NCBI GenBank assembly: GCA_037349105.1
Contig: JAYJMM010000083.1
Location: 992,001 to 1,056,000 of the forward strand
Source of the DNA: Limnomonas spitsbergensis
Lineage: Eukaryota > Chlorophyta > Chlorophyceae > Chlamydomonadales
DNA length: 64,000 nucleotides
Direction of reading: 5' to 3'
The notes beneath the pieces were generated by a model. It was not told the origin of the DNA and did no database searches. It was given only the letters and a program-made list of their open reading frames with translations. Made by a program: the position numbers and the translations under genes. Positions 11,144 to 63,751 of the stretch are shown here, one piece after another (the first letter of the stretch is position 1; each line of letters begins with the position of its first letter).

Positions 11144-11152
11144 GGCGACTAA

Positions 11153-12115: not shown

Positions 12116-12124
12116 CTCCCACTG

Positions 12125-37904: not shown

Positions 37905-38772
37905 AAAAATGACGGTCCATGTGTCTTAGAGAGGTGTCCTTCTACTCATAAACACGGTACATTACCGTACACACAGACTCTTGTACTTCAGACAGGAGCT
38001 GTAACTGGCTACTGTAAGGTTCGGCCCTAGCAGGAAGTCTCTCTGCCTAGGGGTAAGGCCCGGGTGTCCCTGTCTTGAGGGTACCGCCCCTACTACTTCA
38101 CTCGCCCCCCCGCTCCTCAGCGTTAAGCCTAAAGGCATGCGCTGGGAGCCGGAAAAAGGGGTCGGTACTGAAAGAAACTTCTGGAAAAATATGTACGTAG
38201 AAGCTCAAATCACCTCAACCAATCTGCCTGGTTCAGGCCTTCTTCAAACAGAACTAAAAAAAAATCCACTGAGTCTCAACTGAAGCGCTATGCGCAGAAA
38301 CCTACAAATCCAAGCTGTTCAGCCCACTACTGGCTAGCAAACAGAGAAATTTCAAAGTTATCAGGTCAAGCTAAGAACAACCGCTGCTCTCGCCCCACTG
38401 CGCCATAGCCGCCTGGTCTTCAATGGCCACAGGAAATGTGCGCCGTAGCAGCGTGATCCGCCCCTGGCTGTGTTATCATAGTCTGAGTTGACTAATTCTC
38501 CTCGCTCATCATCGTCATAACATATGTACTACCGTAGCCCTGCTGCTATGGTGTTTGAGAAACAAATTTTCACTATGCTGCTGCGATATCTTTAACTTCT
38601 CTCCTGCATATTCCGTCTTCGGTCCGCTGGCTGCCGGCCCACTGCCTGCCGGGTACTAGGACAAGCCGCGCTGCGTCTGCATGTTCTGCTCTGTAGGTGT
38701 CTGCCCGTTCCTTGCCGGTTACGGCGTGGGTGACGTCACGTGCTCAGCGGCCTTGCCGCTCTGGGCTCGGCC
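37905..38772. other. 3' flank of copy B, possible LTR remnant
   Basis: No supported gene. On the minus strand a purine tract GAGCGGGGGGGCGAG (about 38,103-38,117) is followed by TGAAGTAGTAGGGGCGG, which could mark a 3' LTR start of copy B. The sequence beyond it does not match the LTR-like block at 15,816, so this is unconfirmed. Confidence 0.3.
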
Positions 38773-39960
38773 TTAGGTCTCGGTCAGCTCCTCAAGGGCT
38801 GACTCCTCTTCTTCCCTTGCTGCTTCCTTGGCCACCTTAGCCCTTCTTGTAACTGCTCTCGGGGTTACATTGGCCTCTCCCCGGCCAGTGGTGTACGAGA
38901 TGTCGTACAACCCGTTCGCCATTGGTCTTGCGATGCCCCGCTCCATTTGTCTTGTTGCTGGGTTGGTGGCCATGACTTCCACCTCAGGCCTGTCCATGAC
39001 ACTGGCCTCCTGGGCTGTTCTGGCAGCCGCTCTGGCTGCTGGGCTCGGCCGCCCCTGGGCCTTCAAACTGCGATCTTCTGTAGCGGGCCCTGCTGTTGCA
39101 GCGGGCCCAGCTTCCTTGTCATCAGGCGTGCATTTTGGGCACAACCACTCGCCCTCAGGCACCCTCTCGAGTGCTGGCACCAAGCAATCCATGTGCCAAC
39201 CTGAATTGCAGGCATCACACAAAAGCATCACCTCTCCGCGATCAGGCAGCTGGCATACCTCGCATGACAGGCTGTTATTGGGTCTGGTTCCGCTGAAATC
39301 AACCACTCCCCTGAGGTTGGGCAAGTGGCATGGGGAACAATTGACAGCATTCTCTGTTACGGTGAGGCCATCTGCCCCCTCCAAAACCAAGGTTCCCGTC
39401 GCCCCCAGTGTTTTCACCCTTAGGATCTCAGGCCTGGCCTTGGGATCGAGGCTGCGTCGTTCTGATGAATACTTTACATACACGTAATCTCCCTCTGCAA
39501 AACGCCTGACCTGGGGGACATACCCTCCCCCACGAATGCGTGCATATCGCAGCTTGTCGCGGTGCTGCGCAATTTTCAGATGCTCACCCGCGACTGGCAG
39601 CGCCTCTTTGATCCTGGCCACTCTGGCCAAGAGCAGGTCTGCTGCCTCTTCTGCTGTTGCCACCTTGGCTGTGTTCCAGAGGTCCGCCCCCACTCTGGAG
39701 GGAAAGGTGGGTCTCTGCCCGAACAACACCTCGTACGGCGCCATGCGCGTGGCTTGCTGCGGCGAGCACCGGAAGCCTAGGGCCACCCAGGGCACCATCT
39801 TGTCCCAGGACTCGTCGCTGCTGCCTTCCTCGCAGCACTTGCGCAGGCCTGCCTTGAGGGTCTGGACCGCCCTTTCTGATAGCCCGTCTGCCTGGGGATG
39901 GTTGGCAGAAGTGGTGCGGTGATCAATGAAGCAGTCCAACAACATGTCCTGAAATTCAAC
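38773..39960 (-). CDS. Integrase C-terminal part with PHD finger, copy B
   Basis: 390 codons from the first Met after a TAG at 39,961; in copy A the equivalent position is open, so this continues the Pol frame. The start covers the third integrase motif ([17 protein letters not shown] with the catalytic Glu). It continues through [13 protein letters not shown] and a helix-rich region to a [20 protein letters not shown] segment resembling the barrel at the end of integrases. A C4HC3 PHD finger follows (about residues 228-272): CEVC, CDAC, WHMDC, CPKC. The last 110 residues are basic and Ala-rich and end [11 protein letters not shown] fingers read histone H3 tails; here the finger takes the place where chromoviruses carry a chromodomain. 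Confidence 0.8.
39130..39265 (-). other. PHD zinc finger domain
   Basis: Eight ligands in C4HC3 order: C-x2-C, C-x2-C, H-x2-C, C-x2-C, with the Trp two residues before the last CxxC pair as in canonical fingers (GEWLCPKC). It sits at the C-terminal end of the integrase frame. H3K4 methyl or unmodified H3 binding is the usual role of this fold; the specificity of this one cannot be read from the sequence. Confidence 0.85.
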
Positions 39961-42900
39961 CTAGAACTCTGTTCCCTGGTCTGTCACCACTTCTGCGCAT
40001 CCTCCGAATCGTGCTACAACATTTTGAAAGAATGCCAAGGCCGTCACATCAGACGCCTTGCTTGGAATGGGGATCAACTCCACCCATTTGGAGTAATGCT
40101 CCACACAAACCATCACAAACCGATTGCCCCTGGAAGTGGTCGTAAATGGACCACACAGGTCTACTCCCCACCGGAAAAACAACCCCTCAATGGGTAGTGG
40201 GTGCAGGTTGGGCTGTATGTGATTGAACGTGGACGCCCTGGCCCTGTCACACACACCGCATTCCTGCACTGCCTTCTTGACTGCTGCTCTAAGCCCCCGC
40301 CACCAATGTTGCTGCATGACCATGAAAGCCGTGCGGTGGCTGCCAAAATGGCCCGTTCCTGCATGGGCTGTCTGGATCACTGCAAGCCTGTCCTCTGGCC
40401 TGGGCACCGCACAACGTCTACCGTCAGGCATGAGTCTCATCAATACTCCTCCCCTCTCTGATTCCCACTGGAATGGCGCCGCTCTGCGCTGTATCCTGGT
40501 CTGTTCTCCTAACTCTGTTCCCTGAACATATGTCTTCTCGCGGAGAAACCTCAATACAGGTTCATCTGCCCACACGTCAACCCTGGCCGATGGTCCTGCA
40601 GGACATCCTGGCGGGTCCTTCTCACCCTCTGTGTCCCCGGCCACCTCGATTTCAACCTCAACTGGTTCCTCAGGTGTGTTCCCACCTGGTTCCTGTGCCG
40701 CGTCGGCCCAGTCTGCAGCAGCGGATTCTCCTAGGCACTGCCTGTATGACGCTGCCGCCTCTCCGATGCCAGAGCACGCGTTTCCTGCAGTAGCAAGGGC
40801 GTAGTGGCTGGACATTAAAGTTGCACCAAGCACTGGATCCATGTCCGGGCCTGGCAGCTTTGCTCTGCGTTTCAATTTCTCTGATATGATTGTAGCACAC
40901 TCAAGTGCCACATTGAGCCATGCTCCTAGTGCCCACGAATCCATGCACCTGCCCAAGGCTGCCCTCCTGGCCGCCTCTGGGAAGTCTGGGCGCGGCAATG
41001 TGGACCCCACAGCATACCCCATGGCTCGTTCACGCTCGTTTGCATTGGGCTCCTGCAAGTCCCCCATGGGTCTGTACACCATCCCATTTTGCCCGTTCCG
41101 AAAAGAATATGAGGAGGGCGTGGCCATCAAACACGGCAGCACCCTCCTGGGCTGTCCTGTTACGTTGATGCGGTACCCCCCATTGTCAGGGCATGAAACT
41201 ATCTGGGCCTTGCTGCCCTTGTCCAGAATGTCGTCTACTATCCCCCCGTGGGGTCTGGTCGACGCACGAATCACAAACTCGATATCTGCTGCAGGGGCGA
41301 TATTCCCCCAATAGTTGCGGGTGCGGTGGGCGTAAGACCCCACCTGCGCTGCGTCAAACAACGCCGGTGTTCCCAGAATCCTGCACACCTCCTGAAAGGC
41401 CTCAACAACGGCCTTCACACTTTTCAGATTCAATTGCATTGCCACATTCTCGATTAGGTACGCTGGTGGCCTAGGCCCCTGCAGGGACTGCAGTGTACCC
41501 AACATCTCAACTAACGGGAAGAAAGACTTGCTTCTCTCTCCCGCGAGCCCACGCCCCTTGCCTGCTGACGAGAGGTCCTGGCACTCCCAGCCTGCTACCA
41601 TGAACCACTGGCGCCCCTCCTGGGCGCCCGCCTCCTGGAGGTGCTCCGCCGTAATGGCATATACATCTTGGGGCAACGCTCTGAAAGCTTTATCGAACGC
41701 TTTGACCGGAAGCAACTGAGGGTATCTCCTGTGCAACTGCACCAGGCGACCCCCTGCGATCTCTCTGACTTCCTCACTGATATCAGCATACAAGTACTGC
41801 ACCACTGGGATACCCGCCCTGAGCACCATTTCCAGCCCTGAGCACATACCTCCAAAGGGCTCGAAAAGGACGACTCCCTCGGTCTCCATGGCCCGCACAG
41901 CCCCACTCGACAGGCAAGCTGTGTCCAGGCCTGCATGGGAATGAGGGGGTGTCACCCGAGGCAGGTCAGCAAGTACATCACTGATCATCGTCCTGGCCCG
42001 CTCCCTGTTGCTGAACGCCTGTTCTGCCGTACTGACAGGCTGCGCCTGCTCATCATCGTCAGTGGCGGCAGAGGATATCTCTTGCCCAACTGGCGCTGTC
42101 ACGCAAGCTGCCTCTGCAGCCCGCAACATCTGTACTCTCCTTCTTCCCTCCTGCGCCATGCGCACCACCTGGTCGGCATGCCACTGATTGACTCTGCTCA
42201 ACCCTGTGATCAAAGCTACCTGCTTCCCACTTGCCTCCCTCTGGACTGCTGGTTCGGGAGCAGCTGTATCAAGTCTGGCCCCCGTGCGGTCGGCTGAGGA
42301 AGCGAGAGGTGACCTGGACGGGATGTCTGCATTCTGGTGGCATGCTCCTGAGCGATGGACAATGGTAATGTCTAGCTCCTGGAGCATGAGAGCCCACCTA
42401 GCGTGCTGGCCCACCAACGTCTGATTGTCCATGAGGTAAGTGAGCGGCTCATGGTCAGTGATGAGATGCACCTTGCACCCAAACAACATGTGGCGGTATG
42501 TGCGTGCTGCATACACTGCTGCCAGCATCTCCCCCTGGAACGAGGAATAGTTCCTCTCGCTCTTGTTCAGGGATCTGTACGTGCATGCCACCATATACTC
42601 CCGCCCACTGTCATCACACTGCCCTAGCACGGCGCCTATGCCCTGCTTAGAGAAATCTGTGTACAATAAGAACGGCCTTGGCGGCCCCTTGCCGTCTGGC
42701 CCTGTCCCACTGTAATCTGGTCTGCGCAGGACTCTTCCGCCCTCGCACATCTCTGTTTTGATCAACTGGAACGCCTGCGACTGCTCTGGTCCCCACTCAA
42801 ACGGGATCCCCTTGACCAGCAATGCGTTGATGCATGCCGCCTTTTTCGAGAAATCCGGGATGTAGCACCGGTAGAAGTTCAAGAACCCCATGACCTCCTG

Positions 42901-43194
42901 GATGTTTTTCACCGACGCGGGTTCTAGCAACGCCATAACCGCTGCAATCTTCGCCGCATGCGGCGTGAGCCCCTGGGCAGACACATTGTGCCCCAAGTAC
43001 TCAACTGTTGCACACCCAAACAGCGACTTGTCGGGATGCGCCCTCAACCCTACACTGTGGAGCATGTACAGCATCAGCTCCACATGCCTGATGTGGTCTG
43101 CCGGTGTATCGCTGTACACTAGCAGATCGTCAATAAATGCCACGCAAAAAGCACTCAATCCTGCCCTGGCAATCTCCTCTTCCATCATACGCTA
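39961..43194 (-). CDS. Pol of copy B: RT C-terminal half, RNase H, DNA methyltransferase and integrase core
   Basis: 1,075 codons bounded by TAG codons at 43,192 and 39,961. Order: RT from MMEEEIARAG with FIDDLLVYS (about 43,112-43,137); connection domain; RNase H with LLYTDFSKQ, FQGEMLAAV, LITDHEP and HQNADIPSR; a linker (to about 42,020); the cytosine methyltransferase (about 41,960-40,900); a spacer. The integrase follows with the HHCC finger (HAGTGH ... CGVC), VDLCGPF and VTDQGTEF. RT copies RNA to DNA, RNase H removes the RNA, and integrase inserts the cDNA (family knowledge). The methyltransferase is an extra domain not part of standard Pol. The frame is intact across all four domains, unlike the rest of the copy. 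Confidence 0.85.
40900..41990 (-). other. Cytosine-C5 DNA methyltransferase domain inside Pol
   Basis: It begins near MISDVLADL. Motif I is FEPFGGMCSGLEMVL (SAM site, 41,821-41,871). Motif IV is VAGWECQDLSSAGKGRG with the catalytic Cys (about 41,560-41,600). Motif VI is LIENV (about 41,441-41,456), motif VIII RTRNYWGN (about 41,303-41,330). A target-recognition-like stretch follows, then the motif IX region NERERAMGYAVGST (about 41,003-41,045) and motif X ALGRCMDSWALGAWL. The order I to X is unrotated. The MGY and LG-xx-D-S-W strings resemble Dnmt3-type enzymes. The usual Pro before the catalytic Cys is Glu here. The domain is about 350 residues, the size of a bare catalytic domain, and has no lesion in this copy. 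Confidence 0.85.
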
Positions 43195-46047
43195 AAAAAA
43201 AGGCGGTCCATTGCGCAGCCCGAAGTTGAGCTTTGTGTACATCCAAAGCTCAGGACCCATCCAGAAAGCTGTCTTAGGCTGGTCCTCGACCTTTATAGGG
43301 ATTTGCATGAACCCCGACCGGAGATCAACCTTGCTGAATATCTTGGCAGTTCCCAGATTCTGAAAAATAGTCTCCATCCTGGGGATGGCAAATTTCTGCT
43401 TAGCCGTTCGCAGGTTTAACCTGCGCATATCGTGCGCTATACGGTGATCTGTCCACTCCCCTGTCTCTGCACTCTTCTTAGCCGCTACCACCGAGTTGGC
43501 TGCAAACTTAATGGGCCCACCCTGGGGCACCTTGACTATGATGCCTGCCTCAATCATTGGCTGACACTTTTCCTTAAAAATCGCCGCCTTAGGCGGTGGC
43601 ATATCCCTGGACTTCTGAAAGCATGAACTGACCTCATCCTCCAATGCCAGTGTAAACTCACCCTGTGTGCCACAGTAGCCGGGTAAGTCCTCCATGGAGT
43701 AAGCGAACGCTCCTTGGCGGTCCCTGAGGCTCTGCTCGAGGGTCTTTTGCTGGTCCTCCGTGAATTCAGGGTGCTGGCCCAGCAGCCACCCCTCCTGAGT
43801 CTTGACGTACTCCGAGGGTGGTTCGACTACTCCCCCCGGCTGGAACATGTCAATCATCTCCGCCGCCTGCGGGTTGTCCTCCGCGGGCGGCGCTTCCTCG
43901 CCTGTGCTGTTGCCGCGCTGCCAGTCTTCATGCTGGCTGTACCCGCCCCCTGTCCTGCTGGCGCCCCCCAGCGGGCTGACTGCTGGTGGGCGCAGCCAGC
44001 CTGACGTGAGCTTTGCTGCGGCTTCCTGGCTGGACACAAAAGCTCCTTGGCCTGCTGTAAATCCTCCTCCTCTCACTCCCTGCCCGGTGGCTCGCGCACC
44101 CGGGATGCATACGGACAGCAGGAGCCATACCAACACCAGCTGGAGCGTCCCCATAAGGAACCCCTTAAAAGCCGTACTAGTGAGGAGCCCCCTGCAGGAT
44201 GGCAGCCGTCTTGTAGGCTCCTGCGGCTGGTGTGCTGCAGATTGTTTGCGTGGCCCTGCACTCTGCTCTGGCCTCTGCTGCTCCGCTTCCCATGTTATTT
44301 CCAAGTCCACCTGGCAGCTCCTGGAAGGTTGGCCTGGGCAGTCCACGCCTGGCCTGATACCGCGGTCCCTTTCCGCGGCTTTCCTCTGCGTCGCTCCTGC
44401 GCGTCGCCTGGCCTTCTTGGACTTCTTGCCTTGTAACTTGGCTGTGTCAGCCCAAGCTGCACCGGGCCTCTCTTGCCTTGCTGCTCGGGCGTGTCCCTTG
44501 CTGTTCTGCGCCTGTTGCTCCTGCCCGAGGGTGGTGTGCTGCGCATCCCCACTGACTCCTGCGCGCGTGGCCCTTGCTGGTCCTCCGTACCGCCTCGTGC
44601 CTCTCCTGTCATCGGCCATCTGTCTTGCTTGGCCTGCCTGCCAGCTGCTGGTGTGGCTGTTTTCTGCAGTAGCTGCTCCGCCAGCCCTATCCGCTGGCCG
44701 CGCCTGCTGCACACCTGGGGCCTGGCTGCTGTGACTGCCTGCGGTTTGCTGTGCAGCACTTGCGCCGGCCCTTGTTGCCCCAAGAGCTGATATCCTTTCC
44801 GTCAACTCCTCCTGTAGATCTCTGATTGCCCTGCTGTAACTTCCCATCCTGGGGTTAGGGTCGGGCTGTGGCAGCATTCTGAGCCGGAAAAGCAGGCTAG
44901 CCTCCTGGTCTGCCTCTTGCTGCCCCATGTCCTGTCTTCTCAGTACGTCCAGCTGATCTACGAAATTCCTGAGTACTGCCATCCAGCACCCCGCACTGTA
45001 TGATGCCGGGTCACCCCAGGGCTCCCTTGCCGCTGCCTGCACTGGCTGGCTGATCTGGGCGTCCCCTGGGCGCCTGCTGCCAGCCCCACTGGCTGCTGCC
45101 TCCTTTGAATCGCGCGCGCACTGGTCTGCTGCCTGCCGCGGGCTGCCCCTGAATGCGGCCCGGTACGTCCTCTCGCCCCGTGTTATCTCGTTACTGCGCT
45201 CTATCGCGGCTCTCCTGGCTCTGCGTTCCTCCATTGCTGCTTGCTCCTGAATGACGCTGCGCATCCATTCGTGACGCAGCTGTGTCAGGTCTTCCTCGAG
45301 GTCATGCCCCGGACTCCCTGGTCCTGGGCCTCTGTCGGATGGCATATTATCTCCTTCTGCATCCTGAGCCTCTGCTCTGGCGGCGCTATCCTGGTCCGGG
45401 GGCATGGCTCCTCCCTCGTACCACTCCTCTTCTGACCCCGTAATCTCCACCGGTGGTGGCGGCCCTTCCGAAAGGTCGTCGCTGTATCCTGGGTTCCTGC
45501 TGTACAGGTCCTCTGCAAGCAGGGCACCGGTACTGTATCGGGGTGACTGGGGCTCTGCCCGTCCCCTAGGCTCAGATTCCGGTGCAGACCCTCCCATTCC
45601 TTCCGCGGGATCCAGCCATTCCCATGAGGATGCGGCTGCCCCGAATGTGGTGACGAATGCTGCCTGGGTCCATTCTGGCTCTTCTTCCTGTGTAGGACCG
45701 TTGGTGGCGGCCGCAGGTTCCTCCGAGAAGGGACCGCGCCTGCCCACCAGCCAGTGTCCTATCCTTGGCTGGTTCCTCAGGGCCTCCAATTCCTCCTCAA
45801 TGCCGACCTCCCCTGCTCCTCTGAACAGGGGGTGCAGCGTGCGCACCCCTGCAGCGTGCGCACCCCTGCTGGGTGCGCCTGTCTCCACAACTGCGTTGTT
45901 ATGCCGTCTGCCTGCCAATAGGGTAGCACGCTGCTTGCCCTGTTGTCGTGCCACGCTCTCCTCTCCTGACGCACCCACTGGAGCACGCATGCTTCCAGTC
46001 GTTCTACTGCGAACGGCGAGCGCGCAAGCTCCTCCTCTCCTTCCCAC
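43192..46047 (-). CDS. Polyprotein region of copy B up to mid-RT
   Basis: 951 codons. The first third is an acidic Ser/Glu-rich region, then a helical MAVLRNFVDQLDVLRRQDM block and a basic KKSKKARRRAG patch. A hydrophobic segment GTLQLVLVWLLLSVCIPGARA follows (about 44,090-44,155), then a Gly-rich linker. The RT starts with FTLALEDEVSSCFQ and AIFKEKCQPMIEAGII and reaches the first palm motif SKVDLRSGFMQI. It ends at TAG (43,192) in PPFF*RMMEEE, where copy A has Gln. The apparent start at 46,047 follows a frameshift caused by a 17-bp tandem duplication near 45,850; the true frame continues upstream. Confidence 0.75.
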   Translation of the reverse strand: MGRRGGACALAVRSRTTGSMRAPVGASGEESVARQQGKQRATLLAGRRHNNAVVETGAPSRGAHAAGVRTLHPLFRGAGEVGIEEELEALRNQPRIGHWLVGRRGPFSEEPAAATNGPTQEEEPEWTQAAFVTTFGAAASSWEWLDPAEGMGGSAPESEPRGRAEPQSPRYSTGALLAEDLYSRNPGYSDDLSEGPPPPVEITGSEEEWYEGGAMPPDQDSAARAEAQDAEGDNMPSDRGPGPGSPGHDLEEDLTQLRHEWMRSVIQEQAAMEERRARRAAIERSNEITRGERTYRAAFRGSPRQAADQCARDSKEAAASGAGSRRPGDAQISQPVQAAAREPWGDPASYSAGCWMAVLRNFVDQLDVLRRQDMGQQEADQEASLLFRLRMLPQPDPNPRMGSYSRAIRDLQEELTERISALGATRAGASAAQQTAGSHSSQAPGVQQARPADRAGGAATAENSHTSSWQAGQARQMADDRRGTRRYGGPARATRAGVSGDAQHTTLGQEQQAQNSKGHARAARQERPGAAWADTAKLQGKKSKKARRRAGATQRKAAERDRGIRPGVDCPGQPSRSCQVDLEITWEAEQQRPEQSAGPRKQSAAHQPQEPTRRLPSCRGLLTSTAFKGFLMGTLQLVLVWLLLSVCIPGARATGQGVRGGGFTAGQGAFVSSQEAAAKLTSGWLRPPAVSPLGGASRTGGGYSQHEDWQRGNSTGEEAPPAEDNPQAAEMIDMFQPGGVVEPPSEYVKTQEGWLLGQHPEFTEDQQKTLEQSLRDRQGAFAYSMEDLPGYCGTQGEFTLALEDEVSSCFQKSRDMPPPKAAIFKEKCQPMIEAGIIVKVPQGGPIKFAANSVVAAKKSAETGEWTDHRIAHDMRRLNLRTAKQKFAIPRMETIFQNLGTAKIFSKVDLRSGFMQIPIKVEDQPKTAFWMGPELWMYTKLNFGLRNGPPFF
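44080..44190 (-). other. Conserved hydrophobic, signal- or membrane-type segment upstream of RT
   Basis: About 20 hydrophobic residues (GTLQLVLVWLLLSVCIPG) preceded by Lys and followed by ARA-TG. This is the layout of a signal peptide with an A-x-A cleavage site or of a membrane anchor. Copy A has the same segment at about 4,980-5,080 with conservative replacements only (V/I, I/V, G/A). Confidence 0.65.
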
Positions 46048-47720
46048 ATGGCTCCCGATGCTGGCGTCCTCTGTGGCCCATAAGGCCAGGTGGGACAGGT
46101 TGTTATGTCAATAGGTGCCCACTGCCCCTCTACGCCCCACACGTGCCGCATGGCCGCTGACAGCTGTCCTGGGAGTAAGACCCGCTGCAGCACCAGAAGC
46201 ATGAGCGTCCACACTGTTGGATCTGCGCCCCTGGCGTATGTGCAGGCGTGGAACTCTGCCTCATCCACCGACGCGCATTTAGTGATTGCCACGTTGTCCT
46301 GGTGCCTTGCGAACAGGTAGACGGGCTTGTCGTCCTGAGTGGCGTGCATGTGGATCCATGCTGCTGAAACAGGTACCTCCCCATCTTCCACCTCCTCATA
46401 GTAGTAAGTTACTAGCTGCTGGACCGGTATGGCTGACCTGGCCTCCCCGGGTGCCGTCCCCCATGGCACGGCCTGTCCTGCGACCATCCTGGGAATGACG
46501 ATGGACGCCTCAATGGTCGCCTCACACCTCCTTGGCCTGCCTGGATGGCACAGCCCTGCCTCGGCTGGGGCTTGCACTGCTGTCCCCTCAAACCCTGCGT
46601 ACTCGCCCATGGCTTGCACTGGCACATAGAATGCGCGGTCTCTGAGAGCTACGCTCCCCATCAGCTGACGCACGCAGTCCTCCGCCCATGGTGAGCGCAT
46701 GAACCCGGGCTGCGCACCCCGCCACAGCCCCTCTGTGCGCGCGCTGTTGGGCACGTCCGGGTGCGCCCTGGCTGCCGCCTCCACCGCTGTGATGCCCTCC
46801 GCGACTGCCAGAGTCACCATTTCATGTACGCAGCATACATAGATGGGGTGCCGTTCCCACCTGCGCGCCATGTAACTGGGCATGTTTGTGCTGGGCCGTA
46901 TGTACCCTTTGAGTGCTGCCAACAGTAATTCCGCAGTCACTGCATCCCCCGGGAAGATCATCCGGGCCACCGCCTGACTGGCTGCCCGCCTGTTCACGCA
47001 CATCTGCACGCCGCCTTCCTGGAGCCTGTGGTTTTGCACCCTACACAGCCCGTCCAAGCAATCTGCTGGCATGGTGAGCATGGCCATGGAGGTGGACGCC
47101 TCTGGCATCTCTTCCCCCAGGCGGTAATACTGCACAAAGGGCTCGCTCTCTGGTGGAGTCGGCGGATACGGCTTTATGTAGGCCCGCTCTCTGCTGTATG
47201 ATCTCTCTCTGCTGAAGGACTGGTCAAGCTGGCTGTCCTCGCCCCCTGCGTCGGACCTCCCTCCCCTCTCACTGCTGCGCTGCGTCTCTCCGTCCTCGTC
47301 TACTCCTCCCCACGCATTGCACCGAGAGGTAGTGCCTTTATGGGTCCTAACGGGCCCTGCTGGGCTGTTCTGCTGGCTCAATGCCGCGGCTCCCCTGGCC
47401 CCTGGGCGGCGACTGCGCTCGCTGGCTGGGGCCCTCCCGGTGGCTGCTCCTGCTACCCCTCTTCTTGTGTCGCGCTTGCCCTCCGGGGTACCTGGACATA
47501 ACACGGCAAACTCTGCCTCACGCAATGGTGATGGTTCCCGAGGTTCATATTCAGGTTCATAACCTCCTTCTGAAAGGTTGGAGCCATCCCAACTGGAACC
47601 GGTCTCCCACCCGTCTACGCTGTGCTGGGGCAATGCCCCCTGCTCGCGTCTCTCAAACTCATCCCACTGTGCATTGTACTTGTCCCACTCTACGTCGAGG
47701 AACCTCTGCAAAACGGCCAA
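45777..47720 (-). CDS. Unrecognised polyprotein region of copy B
   Basis: 647 codons. The N-terminal part has MAVLQRFLDVEWDKYNAQWDEFERR. A Ser/Arg-rich tract and a globular region rich in Trp and His follow (MRSPWAEDCVRQLM, WGVEGQWAPIDI). It matches copy A without large gaps. It ends out of frame because a 17-bp tandem duplication (gcagcgtgcgcacccct twice, near 45,838-45,871) shifts the frame. The upstream side is cut by the minisatellite at 47,713-47,897. No fold is recognised. Confidence 0.6.
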   Translation of the reverse strand: MAVLQRFLDVEWDKYNAQWDEFERREQGALPQHSVDGWETGSSWDGSNLSEGGYEPEYEPREPSPLREAEFAVLCPGTPEGKRDTRRGVAGAATGRAPASERSRRPGARGAAALSQQNSPAGPVRTHKGTTSRCNAWGGVDEDGETQRSSERGGRSDAGGEDSQLDQSFSRERSYSRERAYIKPYPPTPPESEPFVQYYRLGEEMPEASTSMAMLTMPADCLDGLCRVQNHRLQEGGVQMCVNRRAASQAVARMIFPGDAVTAELLLAALKGYIRPSTNMPSYMARRWERHPIYVCCVHEMVTLAVAEGITAVEAAARAHPDVPNSARTEGLWRGAQPGFMRSPWAEDCVRQLMGSVALRDRAFYVPVQAMGEYAGFEGTAVQAPAEAGLCHPGRPRRCEATIEASIVIPRMVAGQAVPWGTAPGEARSAIPVQQLVTYYYEEVEDGEVPVSAAWIHMHATQDDKPVYLFARHQDNVAITKCASVDEAEFHACTYARGADPTVWTLMLLVLQRVLLPGQLSAAMRHVWGVEGQWAPIDITTCPTWPYGPQRTPASGAMWEGEEELARSPFAVERLEACVLQWVRQERRAWHDNRASSVLPYWQADGITTQLWRQAHPAGVRTLQGCARCTPCSEEQGRSALRRNWRP

Positions 47721-47897
47721 CCTTCACGGCCAACCTTCACACGGGCCAACCTTCACGGCCAACCTTCACACGGCCAACCTTCACGGCCAACCTTCACGGC
47801 CAACCTTCACACGGCCAACCTTCACGGCCAACCTTCACACGGGCCAACCTTCACGGCCAACCTTCACGGCCAACCTTAACACGGCCAACCTTCACAC
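47713..47897 (+). repeat. 13- to 16-bp minisatellite expansion inside copy B coding region
   Basis: About 13 units of ggccaaccttcac with or without an extra acgg. Copy A has a single junction CEGWPGIFQQFLNKEW here with no array. The expansion is therefore specific to copy B and destroys the frame between CEGWP and FLDVEW. Confidence 0.85.
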
Positions 47898-50023
47898 GGG
47901 GCTGGGCACCCCCTTCGCTGGAGGTCCCTCAATAATCCCATCGCATGTGTCACTGATCTGGCCGACCCTGCTGGCATGGTCCCATAATGGTTCATGGCCA
48001 ACGCCTCTACTGCCATTGCCCAGTGGTTTACCTGCCTGGCCACCTGCCCTTCTGGCACCCTCTGTGGAGTCACCTGAGCTGGTGCTGCTTGGTGGACCTC
48101 AGACTGGCTGGCACCCCTGTCCTGGCTAAACCCCATGTGGCTGGTCATGAAACACGTCCCACCCCACCTTGGTTGTTCGCCTTGGCCTGTTGTTTCCTGA
48201 CGCTCCGGTGGTCCTGGCCACGCGCTTGAGCCCGCTGCTGCCTGCTGGCGGTCCCCTTCGCGGGGCGTCCCCATAGCAGTTTCAAAGTTCCGGTGCCGGT
48301 TTCCCTCGGGGGCATCTTGGCTTCTGCCAGGCCCTCTGGCCCCATAGCCCCGTGCTGGGCCTGCAGGTGCTCCTGGCCTGTTGCCTGTTTGTACGGCTTG
48401 CTCAGGGTTGGTGCATTCGTTGGCAAAGTGCTCTGGCTGGCCGCACCTGTAGCAGGCTCCCCCATGGCGGGGTCCTAGATTGCGTTTTGGCTCTGCCATC
48501 CCACTGCCTCCTGCCTGGGCCCTGCCTGGCGGACTCAGACCTGGGCCTCTCTGGTGTCCCGGCCCCTGCCTGTATGGCCTGGCAAACTCCTCTGGTCGCC
48601 GCTCCCTGGACCTGCCCCTGGGCTGTTCCCTGCTGGGTGACTGGTGCCTGCGGTCCCTTTCGGGTGACTGCCGCCTGCGGTCCCAGCCCCGCTCCTCGCT
48701 GGTGTTGCGCTGCGCCTTGCCCTGTCGCTGGGCCCTGGCTTCCGGTGTGGGCACCACCCCGTGGCGCTCCTCACTGATGGCCCTTTGCGCGCTTCTGCTG
48801 CGCTGTCGGAGTCTTCTGTTCCCTGAGTCGCTGGAGTCGTTGCTCTTAGCTTCCTGCTGACCCGCGGCCTGTTGCTCTTCTTCCTGCGGCTCCCCCTGGT
48901 CGGAATGCTCGCTCTCCACGTTTGATAACGGGGACGGGGTCTCCATCATTTTATTGAAGCATTCTGCCGTCTCTGGGTCCACTGCAACTGGGAGCGGCTG
49001 CCCGTGGTTTGGCAGCCCCCCCAAGTGCTGTGTTCCTAGGGCTTCTTGCAGCTTGGTCAGCTCATCTGCACGTAGGATGTACTGCTGATGGACTTCTGCC
49101 ATGGCTTGCTGAGCATCCTGGATGCTCTTCCACCTGCCCAGCTGGCCTCCTAGGTACTCGACGATTCCTGCCGCCTGCTTCCACATCTGGTTTTCTCTCC
49201 ACTTGAGAGCTTGTTTCAGCCCTTCAATACGCCCGGTCAGCTTGCCGATGTGTCTGTCTCGACTGCTGGTCCCTGGCTCTGGAACCTTTTCGCCGCTGCA
49301 CTCCTCCTCCTCCTCTTCCATCTCTTCTTCCTGCGCCTTGCCAGTGCTGCCGCTTGCTTGTTGCGCAGTGGGCCTTGCCACCTTTGGCTGCCCTTGCAGC
49401 TGCTGCTTTTGCGCCTGCCTGCCAGCGCCGCTGCTTGCCTGTTGCGCACTCGGCCCTGCCACCTGTGGCTGTTCTTGCAGCTGCTGCTTTTGCGCCTGCT
49501 CGCCCCTGCTGGGCACTGATTTCACTTGTGCAGCTCTGTCAGCTGCGGCTGTGCCGTATCCCCTCTGCCTTGCGACCGGCGGTGCTGCCTGCACCGCAGG
49601 CGCTGTCCCTGGGATCCGCGAAAGCTCCTGAATCCTCCTCTCGCACTCCTCCGCTGAGTGCCTGGCTGGCTTCCCGCACAAGGCGCACGGGTGGCTGGGG
49701 CATGCTGGCAAGAAGCTTCTGACGAGTTCTCTATCCTTGTCAGAGACTCCCGCGGCTCTGCGCGCTCTGGTCACCTCCTCTGAGGCTGCTGCGCCGGCCT
49801 CTGTCATTGCTGCCTCGATCGGCACCAGCATTTGTCTTTGGAGCCTAGGGTGTACTGTGTTGCCCGGCCCTGCGTCCTGTCCAGCTTTCGTAGCGGTACC
49901 TGCGCGTGTGGCCATGGCATGCTGTAAGAGCGGCTCGTGCTCTGCCTCAACTGTTGCAGCGGGCCACCCTTCTCTTTCTGCGAACCCACACTGGACTCCT
50001 GCCCACGCCACTGCTGCTGCCTG
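47876..50023 (-). CDS. Post-protease region of copy B with second CCHC knuckle
   Basis: 711 codons after TAA at 50,024 (a Tyr codon in copy A). A long Gln/Glu/Ala-rich helical region with QAQKQQLQGQPKVARPTAQQ-like repeats comes first, then an Arg/Ser-rich tract. The knuckle CYRCGQPEHFANEC lies at about 48,415-48,456. A helical segment ending RRGCPAPCEGWP follows, where the minisatellite begins. The arrangement equals that of copy A. Two zinc knuckles on either side of the protease-like domain are unusual for one element. Confidence 0.65.
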   Translation of the reverse strand, partial: QAAAVAWAGVQCGFAEREGWPAATVEAEHEPLLQHAMATRAGTATKAGQDAGPGNTVHPRLQRQMLVPIEAAMTEAGAAASEEVTRARRAAGVSDKDRELVRSFLPACPSHPCALCGKPARHSAEECERRIQELSRIPGTAPAVQAAPPVARQRGYGTAAADRAAQVKSVPSRGEQAQKQQLQEQPQVAGPSAQQASSGAGRQAQKQQLQGQPKVARPTAQQASGSTGKAQEEEMEEEEEECSGEKVPEPGTSSRDRHIGKLTGRIEGLKQALKWRENQMWKQAAGIVEYLGGQLGRWKSIQDAQQAMAEVHQQYILRADELTKLQEALGTQHLGGLPNHGQPLPVAVDPETAECFNKMMETPSPLSNVESEHSDQGEPQEEEQQAAGQQEAKSNDSSDSGNRRLRQRSRSAQRAISEERHGVVPTPEARAQRQGKAQRNTSEERGWDRRRQSPERDRRHQSPSREQPRGRSRERRPEEFARPYRQGPGHQRGPGLSPPGRAQAGGSGMAEPKRNLGPRHGGACYRCGQPEHFANECTNPEQAVQTGNRPGAPAGPARGYGARGPGRSQDAPEGNRHRNFETAMGTPREGDRQQAAAGSSAWPGPPERQETTGQGEQPRWGGTCFMTSHMGFSQDRGASQSEVHQAAPAQVTPQRVPEGQVARQVNHWAMAVEALAMNHYGTMPAGSARSVTHAMGLLRDLQRRGCPAPCEGWPC

Positions 50024-52303
50024 TTACCCCCCTGCTGGGGATGCCCGCATTAGTGGCAGCGTAAGGTCCCTGACCCCTTGCGCCCTCTGTGAGCCCTCTC
50101 TGGGTCGTAAGGTCAGTCTTCCTGTTGCCTCTAATACCCCGGTATACTTGAGGAACTCCGGGTTCCCTACCAAGTGCTCATATGCGTCTGGTGGCGTCTT
50201 AACGACCCTGACCACCGTGGGCTCCATAATGGCATTGGGCCCGCCATATCCATACACCACATAAATGAACAGCACTCCATACAGATCTGCCCCTGCATTG
50301 TCTGTGGTACGTATCTTCTCATCCGTGCGCACCAGCTCCGCCCCCATGGCAACTAATTGCTCTGCAAGATTGACAGTGATGACATGGCACGTGCATGCTG
50401 AGTCCATGAGGGCTTTCTGAGCCACCAGGACCTTCCCTTTGACCATAAGTCCCACACACTGCTCCAGATTGCTTCTGTCATTTTTGAAATACTGCAGCTT
50501 GGGTGCAGCTGTCATCGTTCTACTCTCTGGCCTGGTGTTACTGGTCTCACCCGCGTAGTTGTAGTTGTCTGCTCCCATTGGCATCGTGGTGAAAGACAGC
50601 GCTGAGAGCCTCTCGTTCAGCTTGAACACCTGTAGGCGGATGTCGGACATATCGTCAGCTAGTTTACTCAATACCAGCCTCTTTGCCCCCTTCCTGGAGG
50701 AAGGTTCCAGGAATCCTGGCACTGGTTCCTCCTCCTGCAAAGGTTCTGGCATATATGACTTAGGACGGGCGTTATGAACCGCCTGTTTGAAACCCGCAGG
50801 CTTGGGCACCAGCCCAACCTGCGTCATGAGTGCCACGGACTCGCTGAGCATCTCTGCCATGGTCTGGTGCCAGCCTTCTGGCTCAGCCTGCACCGTTGCA
50901 TTGCTGAGATGCGACACGTGGGCTGCCTGCTGCGCCTGACCCCCCTGGCCAGGCCCAGGCCTTGGATACTGCCTATTGTTCTGATTCCGTTCATACGGCC
51001 TGCATGCAGCCTGTCCCTGCTGCGGCCTTGGCTGTAGAGGGTACTGCTGTTGCTGCGGATACTGCTGTTGCGGCGGATACTGCTGTTGCGGCTGTCTGGC
51101 CGGTCCAGGTGTGATGTCTGTAACCAGGGGCATAGGCCTGCGCTCATCCCTGGCCATGGGCGTCCTGCAGTCCCTGGCCAGGTGCGCCGTGCTACCACAC
51201 TGGTAGCATGCCTTGGCTGCTCCAAGGGCGCCCTCTGCGCTGTAATTTGCCGTCCCTGTTTGGTCCGCCCAGGTAACTCCTCTGGGTTTACCATCCACCC
51301 GCAACTGTGGTACTGCTGCTGAGCCTGCGGGGTGCACTACCCCTTCAAGGCGTGTCCGCATCTCCCACTGTCCCGTTCTCTCTTTTCTGCCCCTGTTGGG
51401 CTGTGCATCTCCCTGGCTAGGCCCGTTGTTGGTCATTTGCCTGAAGCCGGTTCCTCCCAGGTCACCCATTTCCAGGGCAAACCTCTCCCACAGCACCACC
51501 TGCTGTGTGAGTACTGCGATCTGGTCTTCATCGTTCATGCTGAGGTACCCTGGCACCGTCATAACGAACTTGCTCAGCTTGGCTCTAGCAACGGCTGGGA
51601 GTCCGTCGTGGAACATGCGCGAGACAGAGTGGCTTCTGCCGAAGTGATCTACTGCATCCCTTGAGATCTGCAGCAACTCTGCCGTTGTCAGCACTCTGTG
51701 AGCAAATGCTTCCACCGTGTCTTCTGGCTTGACGTCCGGATCTAGAGTAGTCTTTACTCCTAGCCTGAGGTTGGTGATGGCTGTCCTCTCCTCTGAAGTT
51801 GGTTTTCCCACTTCCGCTTGGACCACCCTGATCCACAAAGTGAGCAGCGAGGCCTCGCAACCCTGCCCCTCTGCTGGGGCGATCCACTGCTGCCCGATCC
51901 GTTCCACCTCTGTGGCAATTCTGTTTCCTGCGTGGGGCGCTGCCCTGATGGCTGCCCTCAGTGGCCCCATGCTGGCCGGCTTGCTGTCCCACACCTTGAC
52001 CAGCGACTTGATCAGCAACGTCATAGCTGACGGCGACTGGCATGATCCAGCTATTTCACCGGCCACCACAGCCAGCGTTGGCTGGTCATCCGACATTGCC
52101 AGCCTGTTGTGCGATCCCCAGTATCCACACGCATGGCAATACTTCCTGGCTGCAACTGCGCATGGGTGTGACATATCCAGGACTGGCACGTTGCCTTGGA
52201 TGGCTGGGATCTTGGTGACCTTGGCCACCCCTGTCAGCTGCAGGACCATCTGTTGATGCAGCTGCAGGGTCACTCTCGCCTGCTCCCTGTCGATTCTCTT
52301 CAT
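50024..52303 (-). CDS. Gag C-terminal region, first CCHC knuckle and protease-like domain of copy B
   Basis: 759 codons. The first 290 residues form the helical capsid-like region (MKRIDREQARVTLQLHQQM ... YLSMNDEDQIAVLTQQVV). The knuckle CYQCGSTAHLARDC (about 51,168-51,210) and a Gln/Pro-rich linker with YPPQQQYPQQ repeats follow. The putative aspartic protease has the active-site-like ALMDSACTCHVITVN (about 50,370-50,410) and the downstream strand pair GVLFIYVVYGYGG. Copy A has a nonsense codon inside this domain while B reads through. D-S-A instead of D-T/S-G makes activity uncertain. Confidence 0.7.
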   Translation of the reverse strand: MKRIDREQARVTLQLHQQMVLQLTGVAKVTKIPAIQGNVPVLDMSHPCAVAARKYCHACGYWGSHNRLAMSDDQPTLAVVAGEIAGSCQSPSAMTLLIKSLVKVWDSKPASMGPLRAAIRAAPHAGNRIATEVERIGQQWIAPAEGQGCEASLLTLWIRVVQAEVGKPTSEERTAITNLRLGVKTTLDPDVKPEDTVEAFAHRVLTTAELLQISRDAVDHFGRSHSVSRMFHDGLPAVARAKLSKFVMTVPGYLSMNDEDQIAVLTQQVVLWERFALEMGDLGGTGFRQMTNNGPSQGDAQPNRGRKERTGQWEMRTRLEGVVHPAGSAAVPQLRVDGKPRGVTWADQTGTANYSAEGALGAAKACYQCGSTAHLARDCRTPMARDERRPMPLVTDITPGPARQPQQQYPPQQQYPQQQQYPLQPRPQQGQAACRPYERNQNNRQYPRPGPGQGGQAQQAAHVSHLSNATVQAEPEGWHQTMAEMLSESVALMTQVGLVPKPAGFKQAVHNARPKSYMPEPLQEEEPVPGFLEPSSRKGAKRLVLSKLADDMSDIRLQVFKLNERLSALSFTTMPMGADNYNYAGETSNTRPESRTMTAAPKLQYFKNDRSNLEQCVGLMVKGKVLVAQKALMDSACTCHVITVNLAEQLVAMGAELVRTDEKIRTTDNAGADLYGVLFIYVVYGYGGPNAIMEPTVVRVVKTPPDAYEHLVGNPEFLKYTGVLEATGRLTLRPREGSQRAQGVRDLTLPLMRASPAGG

Positions 52304-54826
52304 TTCTTGGTCGCTGGACTCCTGCCTGGTTCTTGGCCTGCGCCTGTCCGCTCCCCTTGGATCTGAATTCGGTGATTCTGAGCGCGATCCATATCCACCT
52401 CCGCTGCCTCCTGACGGGCTGCGTCCTGGACGGTATCTGTCGAATCTGTTGTCATTGTCCTCCTGATCATCCCTTGACGGCTGTCTGCCTGCTCTTCCTG
52501 CGGAGCTTCGACTCCCATCGCGTGGCTGCCTTCCGGTCTCGCTTCTGCTTGGTCTGTCGCTCGACCCGGGTCTCCAAGGATGTGCTCTGCCTGGTCATGC
52601 CTGCTCCCTGGGCGGTTCCTGGCTTTGCCGATCCTGCTGTGCTCCCCTGCCGCATTCATTGGTTCCTCTGGGTTGCTCCTGGCTTTGCTGCCTTGGCTGT
52701 TCCCGGCTGTCTGCCTGCCCCCTGGGCGGTTCCTGGCCTTGCCGCTCCTGCTGTGCTCCCCTGCTGCATTCATCGGCTCCTCTGGGTTGCTCCTGACTTT
52801 GCTGCCTTGGCTGTTCCCTGTTGTATCCCTGCTCTCTGGGTATTTCCTGGCTTTGCCAGTACTGCTGTCCTTCACTGCTTGCTTGCCCCCTGGGCTGCCC
52901 TCTGTACTGTCTTCCTGGCTGCGTTCCTCATGTGTAATTCCTGGCGAAGGAATCAGATTGCGTTTCCCCTCTGGCTTCCTGCCTTCTTGATCCGTTGCTG
53001 CGCACACTGCCTGCTGGCTCATCCTGTTGCGCTCCTCTTGCCGCTCCCTCTTGCCTGTTCCTCAGGAATTCCTCAATGTTATCCAATTGGGTCTCCTGGC
53101 ATGTGTTCTCTTTGTCCTCGACGATGCGCAGGAGTGCATAGGATTCCTGCCTGCTTGCTCTGCGCGTTGCTACGCCCTGCTCAGCCATCCTGGCCAGTGA
53201 TCGGCTAGTCAACTCCACTCTTTCGTTGGCGGCTGGGCTACTGGCCCTGGGTTCTTCCCTGCCCCTTGGCCGTCCCCTGAGGCTTGGCTCACTGCTGACC
53301 TCAAAAAACTCCGATCTGGGTATCGGTGTTGGCGCGGCCCTGGCCTGCTGCTGCCACCTTTTGACTTCCCTGAGATCTGCAGGTTGTTGCGCTGCTGTTT
53401 CGAATCCTTCCCACACCTGGTCCTCCTCATCTTCTGGTTCGGAAGTGTGCTCCACTGGATGTTCAGTCACCTCATCACACCACTCATCTGCGAAAGCCTT
53501 GACAGCTAGGGCTGCTTCACGTCCTACCCTTCCCTTGGACACCTGTCCAAGGGCGGCCAACAGCACTGCCCTGTCCTGCCCGGTGTGGGACATACCCAGC
53601 ATGGCCTTTGTTGCCCATCCCTGCAGATGATGGGCCCTGAACTCCTCAATGGCTGCGATTTGATCCTGGAGTTGCGAGAACGTCCTGGTACATACTTCTT
53701 TCCACAGGTTTGTTGCCCACTGCAAAAGTCCTGCCCAGCCGAGCGGCTGCATTTGCTTTTCTGGCTCCTCTTCGACGCTGACCTCTTCCACTGCCCTGGA
53801 GCGCTCTGGCTCGCTAGGTCTGGCATCCTGCGCCTGCGCTGGTCTTGGAAAAAATCCACGCCTGATTCCCTTGCTGCTGCCGCCTTGCATCTGGTTGCTA
53901 GACCACTCCTTGGGTGTCTGCACAGGTCTGCCCACACTGGGCGCAAACTTGGACAGCGGTGTCCCGTAGACTGTGGATCCCACCCCTCTTTTAACCAGCA
54001 CCTTGCGTGGTCGCATTGGCTGTCTTGGGCGCAGTCCTGTCACTGGCTGCCGCTCCTTCTCTTCTTGCATCGGCTCAGGCAGCTCCTCCTCGGATATTAG
54101 GTCAGCCCACGGTTTTCCCACTGGTACAGCTGACTTTTCCTGCGGTTTTCTGCTGCTCCGCGGGACCTGCCTGGTTCCCGACGTCTGGATCTCAGCTTCC
54201 ATGCGCGTGACTTCTGCAAGTATACTCTCAACTTCCATGTCCTCTGCTTCCATTCGCTGTTTGTCTGGGCAGGTTTTATCATTGCCTGCAAACCCGCCTG
54301 GGGCTGCGGCTACCTCGGCCCTGAGATCCGGTTGGCTGGGCTCATCTTTAACCCGTTGTGCAACCCTTGCCACCCTGGGCAGAATCTGCTGCGGCGCGGC
54401 CTCAGGTTCACCGCTCTGCCGCGTGTCACAGCTCTGGGACGCTTCCGTTGCCTGATCCAAGACCAGCTCTGGGGTTCCCGCTTGAGTCTGCCACTGCTCG
54501 AAATTCAGACTGCTGTCTGAACCAGCGGGCAATGGACCCCCTCGACCAATGCCTTTTCGCGTTACGAGCACTGCACCATCTGCCTGCGCCCCTGCCTCTC
54601 TGGGCGGTTCACGGCCCGGCTCAGGCATCTTGCGGTCCTCTGCAGATGGTTCCGCTGGCCCTGCCAGCTTCTCCGCCATTAACAGGGCTTCTGCCACAAA
54701 TTCAACGCTAGCATTCCTCAGGTCTACACCCGGCTCCAGCCCCCTCAGACGCCCACTCTTTCTTTGGACATCAGGGTGCTGGTGCCTATCGGGATTCAGA
54801 TCTACGCCTGTCATTTCCACAGGCAC
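52304..54826 (-). pseudogene. Gag N-terminal region of copy B
   Basis: The frame 52,928-54,826 (632 codons) matches copy A from MTGVDLNPDRHQHPDV onward: low-complexity Glu/Pro/Ala-rich DNA, a helix block (QVSKGRVGREAALAVKAFADEW) and Arg/Ser-rich ends. TGA near 52,928 breaks it where A has Gly (NYTGGTQPG). The 18-residue repeat region follows in an unannotated frame (52,600-52,920); a 240-codon frame overlapping it (52,300-53,022) is out of register. Confidence 0.6.
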
Positions 54827-54839
54827 TTTACGAACCGCA

Positions 54840-55164
54840 CGGTCCTGCAGGTGTGCTGGCTACACCCCCTACAAAGATCTGCTAACGTTAGGCTTCTGCC
54901 CCTTGTTCCTACTGCAATCTGGTGAGGATCTGCAAGTCAAGACTGGACGGCAGGTACAGCAATCAGCAGGATAGGCCTCGCCTTTCTGCTTTTCTGCTCA
55001 CTAATTTTAATCTGGCGGAATCCTCCTTCGCCCTTTTTTCTGCTTGCTAATTTTTAATCTGGCGGAATCCTCCTTCGCCCTTTTTAGCCCCTCCCACCTT
55101 TGCTGGCTGGGCTGCTTCTAGATGGCACACGTCCCGCTTGGATGTCTCGCGTCCTGCGCGGCGG
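54840..55164 (-). other. 5' leader of copy B
   Basis: Matches 15,545-15,815 of copy A. It includes a tandem duplication of about 45-50 bp (aatctggcggaatcctccttcgccc occurs twice at 55,008 and 55,060) not present in A. It ends exactly at the TA target of the 8.6-kb insertion. Confidence 0.6.
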
Positions 55165-55179
55165 TACGTCGGTAACATG

Positions 55180-56229
55180 AGAGCGCTTGATTTGGCCGCT
55201 TGATTTGCCCCCTATTTCAAGCCACTGGAAGACAGAGGCTTGAACGCACCTCGTTTCAAACGACAATCAGGCGTGTCCACTGAAAAGTCGAATTGACATC
55301 TATCGCCTGGAAATACTGTAAGTTACCAATTTTACCGAGGTAGATGTAGTGAATCACGACGGCGATTGACACAGGCGCCTATCGCAGGTCGCCTAGCGTG
55401 TACCGTAGGCAACCGACTTATAACAACTTTCAGCCGTGACTTTCTTACGCTTCGCAGGCTTTAAATGCGATCGAAAGTTGTACTACTGTGGTTAGGCATC
55501 AACTTACTGGGACGGCTAGCTCTCATTAACAAAGAAAGGTTGAGGGGCGCTTGAGGAAGTTGTATGATACCGTAAGCACCCCAAGGCTTCTAAGCAGCAT
55601 ACACAAGGTCGCTAAGGTCACTAAGGTCACTAAGCTGCAGCAGCGGAAGCCTACCAGCATGTGTGCAGAAGCAAGAGTTATCCGGCAGCTCATAATTTTG
55701 ACCGCCCTAAGCGAACGTCAGCAGATGCGACAAGAGTAAAGGAGACAGCAACAGAAGGATTCAGCGGTACAGCTCTCAGTGTCGGGTGGAGTCAGCACTA
55801 TGGGACTCGTTTTTGAGCTTGCATGTCTCGCATGTGTTGTGACTTGCCCATACCATATGCACATCGCCCAAGCGCAACGCCCCGCCCGCATGCGCACCAC
55901 CCTTCTTGCATGCGCATTTCCCTCGAGCAAGAGCAGCGCACCGCACGTATACTAGCACATCCTGGTCTTCCTATCACCGGCCTGTTTGCACAGTGCCCCA
56001 CCGGTACTTGAATCCGTAGCACCCGATCACCTCATGCGCATGCACATCGCCCCGACGGATGGGCAACGCCGTCTAAATGCCTCGCCAGCCTGCGGATTGG
56101 TGTAGTGCCCCACCCACCTGCAGTGCCCGCCCGTATTATTTACTGTGCACAGCGCCCGCCCGTATTACCGTGCCCCTCCGATGAGTGTAGTGCCCCACCC
56201 GCATGCACAGCGCTTGCCTGTATGAACAG
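55180..56229. other. Left part of the 8.6-kb element, no recognised gene
   Basis: Two cgcttgatttg-type strings (55,183-55,205) sit next to the left end. A short direct repeat ggtcactaa occurs three times near 55,610-55,635. Pyrimidine-rich sequence with cgcccgcatgcgcacc-like strings (55,880-56,220) leads into the 59-bp array. No supported coding region. Confidence 0.4.
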
Positions 56230-56930: not shown

Positions 56931-57149
56931 GGTTTCTATAGTGAAAGATTTTGTGAAGGGTCCTGAGTTCTTTAAGATTAATGTGTGGAAATGGGTCCGA
57001 GGGGAGCCTTGCACACAGGTATATGCCGTTACCCCCCAGTCTGATTCTGATTCCGAGTGATTCATGCTGATTTAGAGTGGACATTTAAATTATTATTATG
57101 CTTGAACTGAGTGTAACAGTAGATTGAACTGATTGTAACAGTATGTGTA

Positions 57150-58190: not shown

Positions 58191-58377
58191 CATGCTTAAC
58201 GCTCGGCCGCGTGGGGCTGGTAGGAATGACTAGGCTCAATTCCAGCTACCCTGCACAGCCTGGGCCATGGTGCAGCCATGCCATCCTCCTATGTGAGGGG
58301 GCAGGAACATGGAACCCGGCATAACACAAATCATTATTGACTACATGCGGGACAGAATGCCACTCACGGACAAGTCA

Positions 58378-63705: not shown

Positions 63706-63751
63706 TTTTTCGTTTCAAGCGTGGATCAAGGGGCCCCATGTTACCGACGTA

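Follow-up and report, generated by a model that had tools for sequence, protein, structure and literature searches.

A giant Ty3/gypsy-related retroelement family of green algae, the integrase of which is flanked by a DNMT3-type methyltransferase and a PHD finger

In the genome of the green alga Limnomonas spitsbergensis, a lineage of giant (~19 kb) retroelements related to Ty3/gypsy encodes, in one Pol polyprotein, a DNMT3-type C5-cytosine methyltransferase and a PHD finger, which stand on either side of an integrase. The element was recognised in a stretch of 64,000 nucleotides (contig JAYJMM010000083.1, positions 992,001 to 1,056,000 of assembly GCA_037349105.1), hereafter the window, the minus strand of which holds two decayed copies, A and B, of one giant retroelement, with a DNA identity of 64-87% in their matching segments. 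The joint explanation that fits best, to which we assign a probability of about 0.6, is that this lineage, which bears a PHD finger, captured a methyltransferase, and that the PHD finger targets chromatin while the methyltransferase marks the new copy.

Copy B extends from 37925 to beyond the right edge of the window, and its Pfam matches follow one another in the order reverse transcriptase (RT), RNase H, methyltransferase, H2C2/DDE integrase and PHD finger in a single frame read from 46047 to 38773. The N-terminal part of the RT (43195..43794) is 96.0-96.5% identical to four recent copies and matches PF00078 at 21.7 bits, under the cut-off of 29.6, while its C-terminal part and the RNase H (42289..43188) match PF00078, PF17917 and PF17919, as well as Ty3 in the PDB (E 3.2e-34). 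These are followed by the complete, unrotated methyltransferase domain (40819..41928), a linker (40489..40818), the zinc domain and catalytic core of the integrase (39964..40488; PF17921 at 43.9 bits, PF00665 at 29 bits), the end of the core with the C-terminal region (39301..39945), the C4HC3 PHD finger (39106..39279; PF00628 at 43.9 bits) and a C-terminal Pol tail (38776..39105). Two in-frame TAG codons, one in the RT (43192..43194) and one within the integrase core (39961..39963), interrupt this frame and, because they break it, copy B is a fossil. Reading TAG as a sense codon, given that both stops lie where relatives have Q, was considered and rejected, as copy A has Q at both positions and the long copies described below are open under the standard stop codons. 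An earlier, sequence-only reading had placed an RT, RNase H, complete unrotated methyltransferase, HHCC/DDE integrase and C4HC3 PHD in one Pol of copy B, which the Pfam matches and the single frame confirm despite the two stops, and its assignment of the 40,900-41,990 region to a methyltransferase is upheld by Pfam, by the motif order and by the predicted fold.

The same arrangement is found throughout the 260-Mb assembly (124 contigs), where the Pfam methylase model gave at least 123 scored matches out of 664 candidates, 12 of them in frames that stay open over at least 5,000 aa and nine in frames of 2,251-2,253 aa. Four long-frame copies, read in pieces, hold every domain in one open frame of 5,243-5,260 codons from the first Met to the stop. 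In 20 further copies, chosen by their methyltransferase match, the integrase and then the PHD finger lie downstream in order in every case, the finger being in the same unbroken frame in 13 and separated by a stop or a frameshift in seven; the RT is also present in all 20, with only 19 residues of it in one (L036). Fifteen of these copies belong to the family of the window (methyltransferase 87-95% identical) and five to a second family at 42% (L025 and L039-L042), which has the same domain order in open frames of 2,253 aa (L039-L042) or 1,627 aa (L025), and the terminal repeats of which were not found in the stretches fetched.

Protein databases yielded a similar picture. The methyltransferase query matched 55 proteins (7,994 scored candidates), 41 of which include the integrase C-terminal region and 37 of these 41 also the PHD finger; of the four without a PHD match, two stop at the integrase C-terminal region and two (P0024, P0030) extend past it. 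The query combining integrase and PHD matched 244 proteins, of which 120 were listed. In the pool of 166 from both searches, a combination that inflates the share, 94 of the 104 proteins with RT, integrase and PHD finger also have the methyltransferase, and the order RT, methyltransferase, integrase, PHD was read in 96 of 169 proteins, most of the remainder being without an RT or an end. Most family members are metagenome sequences, and the relatives with a named organism are all green algae: all five parts occur in Haematococcus lacustris (P0105, P0127), Chlamydomonas eustigma (P0112) and Monoraphidium neglectum (P0164), while methyltransferase (partial in Pleodorina), integrase and PHD finger, with no RT, occur in Volvox reticuliferus, Tetrabaena socialis and Pleodorina starrii. 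On the other side, four Haematococcus proteins are without the methyltransferase: P0150, which has the RT as well as the integrase and the PHD finger, and P0056, P0096 and P0121, which have the integrase and the PHD finger only. The only streptophyte named among the methyltransferase matches is Closterium (P0051, 40% identical). In viral contigs, the protein search with the query found no relative, and the alignment search gave only distant matches, with best segments 24-47% identical among the best 80 of 324 loci.

This recurrence bears on whether the arrangement is a chimera, in which the methyltransferase and the PHD finger would come from separate nested elements or from an assembly error. 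The idea draws on copy A, where the counterpart of copy B 41195-42025 has been replaced by unrelated DNA, so that exactly motifs I-VIII of the methyltransferase are gone and motifs IX-X are kept. Nevertheless, the same order in 24 copies of two families in this genome and in dozens of database proteins on other contigs leaves it next to no probability, and the nested-chimera reading was rejected on the domain order common to both sets; the refutation envisaged by the sequence-only reading, copies with the two domains in separate elements, thus fails. The block in copy A itself (1632-2921) is rich in stops, and the PHD finger of that copy lies just outside the window, in the left flank.

The methyltransferase domain has, by structure prediction from an alignment (a single-sequence prediction, with a pLDDT of 36, was discarded) and by motif alignment, the DNMT3 fold and an unrotated motif order I-X. 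Among 126 relatives, the catalytic Cys, the Glu of the ENx motif and the arginines of motif VIII are nearly invariant; the Pro of motif IV (usually PCQ) is Glu in copy B and, among the relatives, E in 88, P in 25, S in seven, A in three and D in two, with MCT as motif IV in both copies of the second family that were read (L025, L039). As for the PHD finger, 147 of 151 matches have all the C4HC3 zinc ligands, and an Asp follows the third ligand in 138 of these 147. The solved relatives of the finger by sequence include the PHD fingers of CHD4, Lid (KDM5), BAZ2A and ATXR5, several of which read the unmodified H3 tail.

Both modules are under purifying selection. In 19 copies of the window family, with 16-18 open per segment, the ratio of nonsynonymous to synonymous polymorphism (pN/pS) was well below 1, at 0.15 for the methyltransferase and 0.21 for the PHD finger, compared with 0.05 for RT and RNase H, 0.04 for the integrase, 0.19-0.21 for the linkers (0.21 for that between methyltransferase and integrase) and 0.25 for the Pol tail. 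The two were also retained together over deep divergence, as the 94 of 104 proteins with both show a median pairwise identity of 45-50% over the domains (n=87).

The distances of RT and methyltransferase are correlated (Mantel r 0.61, maximum null 0.21, n=87), and the weaker correlation obtained with the PHD finger (0.16-0.28, nulls up to 0.16) may be either that expected of a 49-position domain or a result of exchange. The RT tree holds 98 rows, i.e., the window and 97 of the 107 eligible proteins, 10 having been dropped for short RT pieces. Nine rows are without the methyltransferase: a single one and a group of four lie among the bearers (support 80-91, unstarred), and the other four lie with P0055 (starred). 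Subject to the placement of the root, the tree suggests losses of the methyltransferase and one second, differently placed capture, with the starred branches forcing fewer changes than the tree displays and P0055 being one protein. This is the single protein with the methyltransferase (residues 1-322, with a PPC motif) N-terminal of the RT, its RT groups with those of elements that have no methyltransferase, and it may represent the second capture. A query with its methyltransferase returned four proteins including itself, the other three in the usual order, which leaves P0055 as the sole basis for the N-terminal placement. No host donor of the methyltransferase was identified, and the frames from six of the eight loci of this genome searched (L001-L008) match the retroelement methyltransferase profile weakly, at 15.3-34.5 bits. 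Two of these loci, L001 (G000:C30:293433-294374) and L002 (G000:C93:390191-390736), are further cytosine methyltransferases that, by eye, resemble those of bacteria or giant viruses, and are possible viral insertions.

The ends of the element are unusual for Ty3/gypsy. All four long-frame copies begin at the 5' end with a repeat A1 (633-644 bp) and close at the 3' end with the succession B1 (231 bp), A2 (631-642 bp) and B2 (229 bp). Only 1-2 substitutions and two gap columns separate A1 from A2, the termini are TGTC at the start and GACA at the end, and each of these recent insertions is flanked by a 4-bp target-site duplication of its own, different per copy. The junction between B1 and A2 reads GACAGCTGTC, a palindrome, and a G-rich tract lies ahead of B1. 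Conventional identical long terminal repeats (LTRs) at both ends are thus absent from all four, and a self-comparison of the window for LTRs found none, which was explained after searching with the A repeat from another copy. The layout equals that of a two-LTR circle (LTR = BA) opened at the B|A junction and, because of this match, we infer that integration may proceed through a circular intermediate. Just after A1, a short perfect hairpin, CCTTT-AG-AAAGG, stands at the expected position of the primer-binding site (read in L017, and present in 4/4 copies), by which self-priming is conceivable.

The PAT/DIRS elements have split direct repeats of the form A1-ORF-B1-A2-B2, a layout usually tied to tyrosine recombinases. 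The present family shares the repeats and has, where those elements have a tyrosine recombinase and no target-site duplication, a DDE integrase and 4-bp target duplications, and with Ty3/gypsy it shares the Ty3-type RT and RNase H followed by an H2C2/DDE integrase, and the short target duplication, but not the conventional LTRs. Chromoviruses, the Ty3/gypsy elements with a chromodomain, bear this histone-reader domain on the C-terminus of the integrase; the reader here has the same place, with a PHD finger instead of the chromodomain (PF00385 gave no match in 38773-39945 at E 0.01), and the methyltransferase stands between RNase H and integrase. DNMT3 itself is a methyltransferase paired with a PHD-like ADD finger. 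DNMT3A and DNMT3B are alike in fold and motif order, whereas the finger here is a classical C4HC3 PHD beyond the integrase, and neither ADD nor PWWP was matched by Pfam in the pieces 39961-43188 and 38773-39945 of the open reading frame. To our knowledge, known retroelements carry either a chromatin reader, such as the chromodomain, or a methyltransferase.

The closest described system is KnitGypsy-Dnmt3 of Klebsormidium nitens, for which the main text of de Mendoza et al. 2018 (PMC5890265) reports a Dnmt3 inside a gypsy Pol, under purifying selection, and the legend of its Fig. 4 equates the terminal repeats with the ones found in a DIRS retrotransposon. The family described here resembles it, as far as that legend allows, in its unrotated Dnmt3-type methyltransferase in a gypsy Pol frame and its DIRS-like repeats, and differs in the PHD finger after the integrase, the term PHD occurring nowhere in that main text (a comparison by text and not by sequence, under which a PHD may be present there), as well as in a frame of ~5,250 codons and in the named hosts of the full set, which are chlorophytes. 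SymbioDIRS-Dnmt3, for which de novo CG methylation is reported in the same main text, is likewise a retroelement with Dnmt3 in Pol, but a DIRS with a tyrosine recombinase, of an unrelated element class. No DNMT3 was found in the green-algal MMETSP transcriptomes, according to PMC9998398. A literature search, with subscription journals mostly and preprints wholly outside its scope, showed, among the papers listed, no description of an algal gypsy element with a PHD finger or of a methyltransferase combined with one. The family is, therefore, a variant of the KnitGypsy-Dnmt3 kind, the apparently new part of which is the presence of methyltransferase and PHD finger on one integrase-bearing polyprotein.

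In the mechanism we favour, the element acquired, at a point between its RNase H and integrase, a DNMT3-type cytosine methyltransferase. The PHD finger at the C-terminal end of the integrase belongs by sequence to the type that reads the unmodified H3 N-terminus and would hold the integration complex on chromatin of a chosen state; this steering is its most likely role by analogy, because it occupies the place of the chromodomain in chromoviruses. The methyltransferase, packaged with the RT, would methylate the new DNA copy either ahead of integration or at that step, probably at CG, and the copy would arrive in the genome with a host-like or silent mark in place. Such methylation is the leading inference because a methyltransferase between RNase H and integrase would be where the cDNA is made, and because SymbioDIRS-Dnmt3 is reported to be active. 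The sequence-only reading had gone further and proposed a writer and a reader forming one self-contained epigenetic module: its anatomy stands, with a methyltransferase of the DNMT3 kind and a PHD finger flanking the integrase in one polyprotein, and the joint action of "writer plus reader" is a hypothesis on a sound anatomical basis.

The decayed copies provide the only hint of methylation in vivo, a modest excess of C-to-T changes at CG. With the C35 copy as reference, the changes specific to copy B number 100/837 at CG, 234/3,066 at CHH and 110/1,772 at CHG, and those specific to copy A 30/573, 66/2,357 and 33/1,382, respectively (Fisher p 0.006 to 1e-6 for the CG excess); taking the C40 copy as reference instead changes the figures little (copy A, 25/569 CG). 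This decay fits methylation by the element or by the host alike.

Several observations weigh against the mechanism proposed. The odds ratios of the CG excess are modest (1.6-2.3) and may reflect host methylation, and CpG depletion fails to set the element apart because the observed/expected values of element and flanks overlap: five mostly-element stretches have 0.56-0.58 and seven flanks 0.55-0.90, with 0.76 for window positions 17,501-34,000 and 0.93 for a single A1 repeat. The constraint on the methyltransferase is weaker than that on RT and integrase, and that on the PHD finger no stronger than on the linkers; the change from Pro to Glu in the PCQ motif could alter catalysis; and, because 10 of the 104 relatives have the PHD finger without it, the methyltransferase is dispensable.

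Among the alternatives, that with the strongest claim, though somewhat short of an even chance, gives the two domains separate jobs and no common module, the PHD finger substituting for a chromodomain in target choice and the methyltransferase shielding or masking the cDNA from host defences, an idea raised in the main text of PMC5890265. The domains flank the integrase and are not adjacent, and the PHD finger works without the methyltransferase because elements with the finger and no methyltransferase exist, five of the nine in the RT tree lying among methyltransferase bearers with unstarred support; on the other hand, the retention of both in 94 of 104 over deep divergence speaks against this reading. 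It is unlikely that the methyltransferase has lost DNA methylation and is retained as a nucleic-acid-binding or RNA-modifying domain: the replacement of the motif IV Pro in most relatives and the MCT of the second family would agree with this, as would the retroelement DNMT of LINE type that gave no DNA methylation in yeast (PMC5890265, main text), but the nearly invariant catalytic residues and the completeness of the predicted fold argue against it. Slightly less probable still is a benefit to the host, in which an element that spreads more slowly through its own silencing is tolerated for that reason; self-methylation would produce self-silencing and the old copies do show CG-biased decay, yet the four very recent one-frame copies and the 12 of 123 matches in frames of at least 5,000 aa suggest ongoing success. 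A bolder extension of the favoured mechanism, which we hold to be doubtful, would have chlorophyte retrotransposons carry a DNMT3-like system rebuilt from parts, in which the methyltransferase and the PHD finger of the unmodified-H3 type act together as methyltransferase and ADD do in DNMT3, choosing H3K4-unmethylated chromatin and methylating the element or its surroundings, while the DDE enzyme would integrate a circular intermediate that has two repeats and is opened where B meets A, at the palindrome.

The other parts of the two copies also lie on the minus strand. In copy B, the Gag-like and N-terminal Pol region (45777..54826) is broken into several ORFs and has two CCHC knuckle matches, one under the Pfam cut-off; the corresponding region is open in the four recent copies. 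Two of the recent copies (L017 and L009) show the two knuckles ~930 residues apart in one frame, at codons 1181 and 2112, as if Gag had been doubled, the first being below the cut-off. Upstream of the RT of the C35 copy, two pieces totalling 3,586 residues gave no Pfam match to a protease, and the DTG triplets, looked for in the second piece, stand in an unlikely context. The 5' untranslated region of copy B is divided into a proximal (54815..55161) and a distal part (63753..64000, with the A1 repeat next, in the right flank) by ~8.6 kb of unrelated DNA, unstranded, with tandem repeats of 59, 147 and 34 bp (55162..63752). The 3' untranslated region (37925..38772) matches that of the C35 copy over 38895-37925 at 81%, the likeness ending at 37925, and no B1-A2-B2 repeats were found at this end and no A repeat match nearby. 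Copy A (1-16866, truncated by the left edge) consists of a coding region (1..15562), the 3' end of which is outside the window, a 5' untranslated region (15514..16226) and an A1 repeat (16227..16866, 89% to that of the C35 copy).

Next to the truncated 3' end of copy B, an ORF at 36783-37904 has an RT-like stretch (36837-37211, 31% to the Pol of copy B) and a weak MYND-finger match below the cut-off. At 34568-35299 lies the end of the integrase of a different gypsy element, which has SH3_Tf2-1 and a chromodomain, so that the chromovirus-type reader and the PHD type coexist in this genome. An ORF at 26399-27526, which Pfam matches to the 4-fold beta flower protein, is built largely from a 24-bp tandem repeat and is probably a translated repeat. 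The right flank (L022) has fragments of further related elements around 2248-2860 and 6870-8196 (methyltransferase 52%, PHD 50%) and an A repeat at 84% in the orientation opposite to copy B.

Given that methyltransferase and PHD finger occur together in copies recent enough to have intact target duplications, a self-written epigenetic state and the choice of chromatin become testable in a living alga. The combination of split direct repeats, a DDE integrase and target duplications loosens the usual tie of this layout to the tyrosine recombinases. Finally, DNMT3-type enzymes are now found in chlorophytes, and studies of the methylome in these algae must weigh the enzymes borne by elements.

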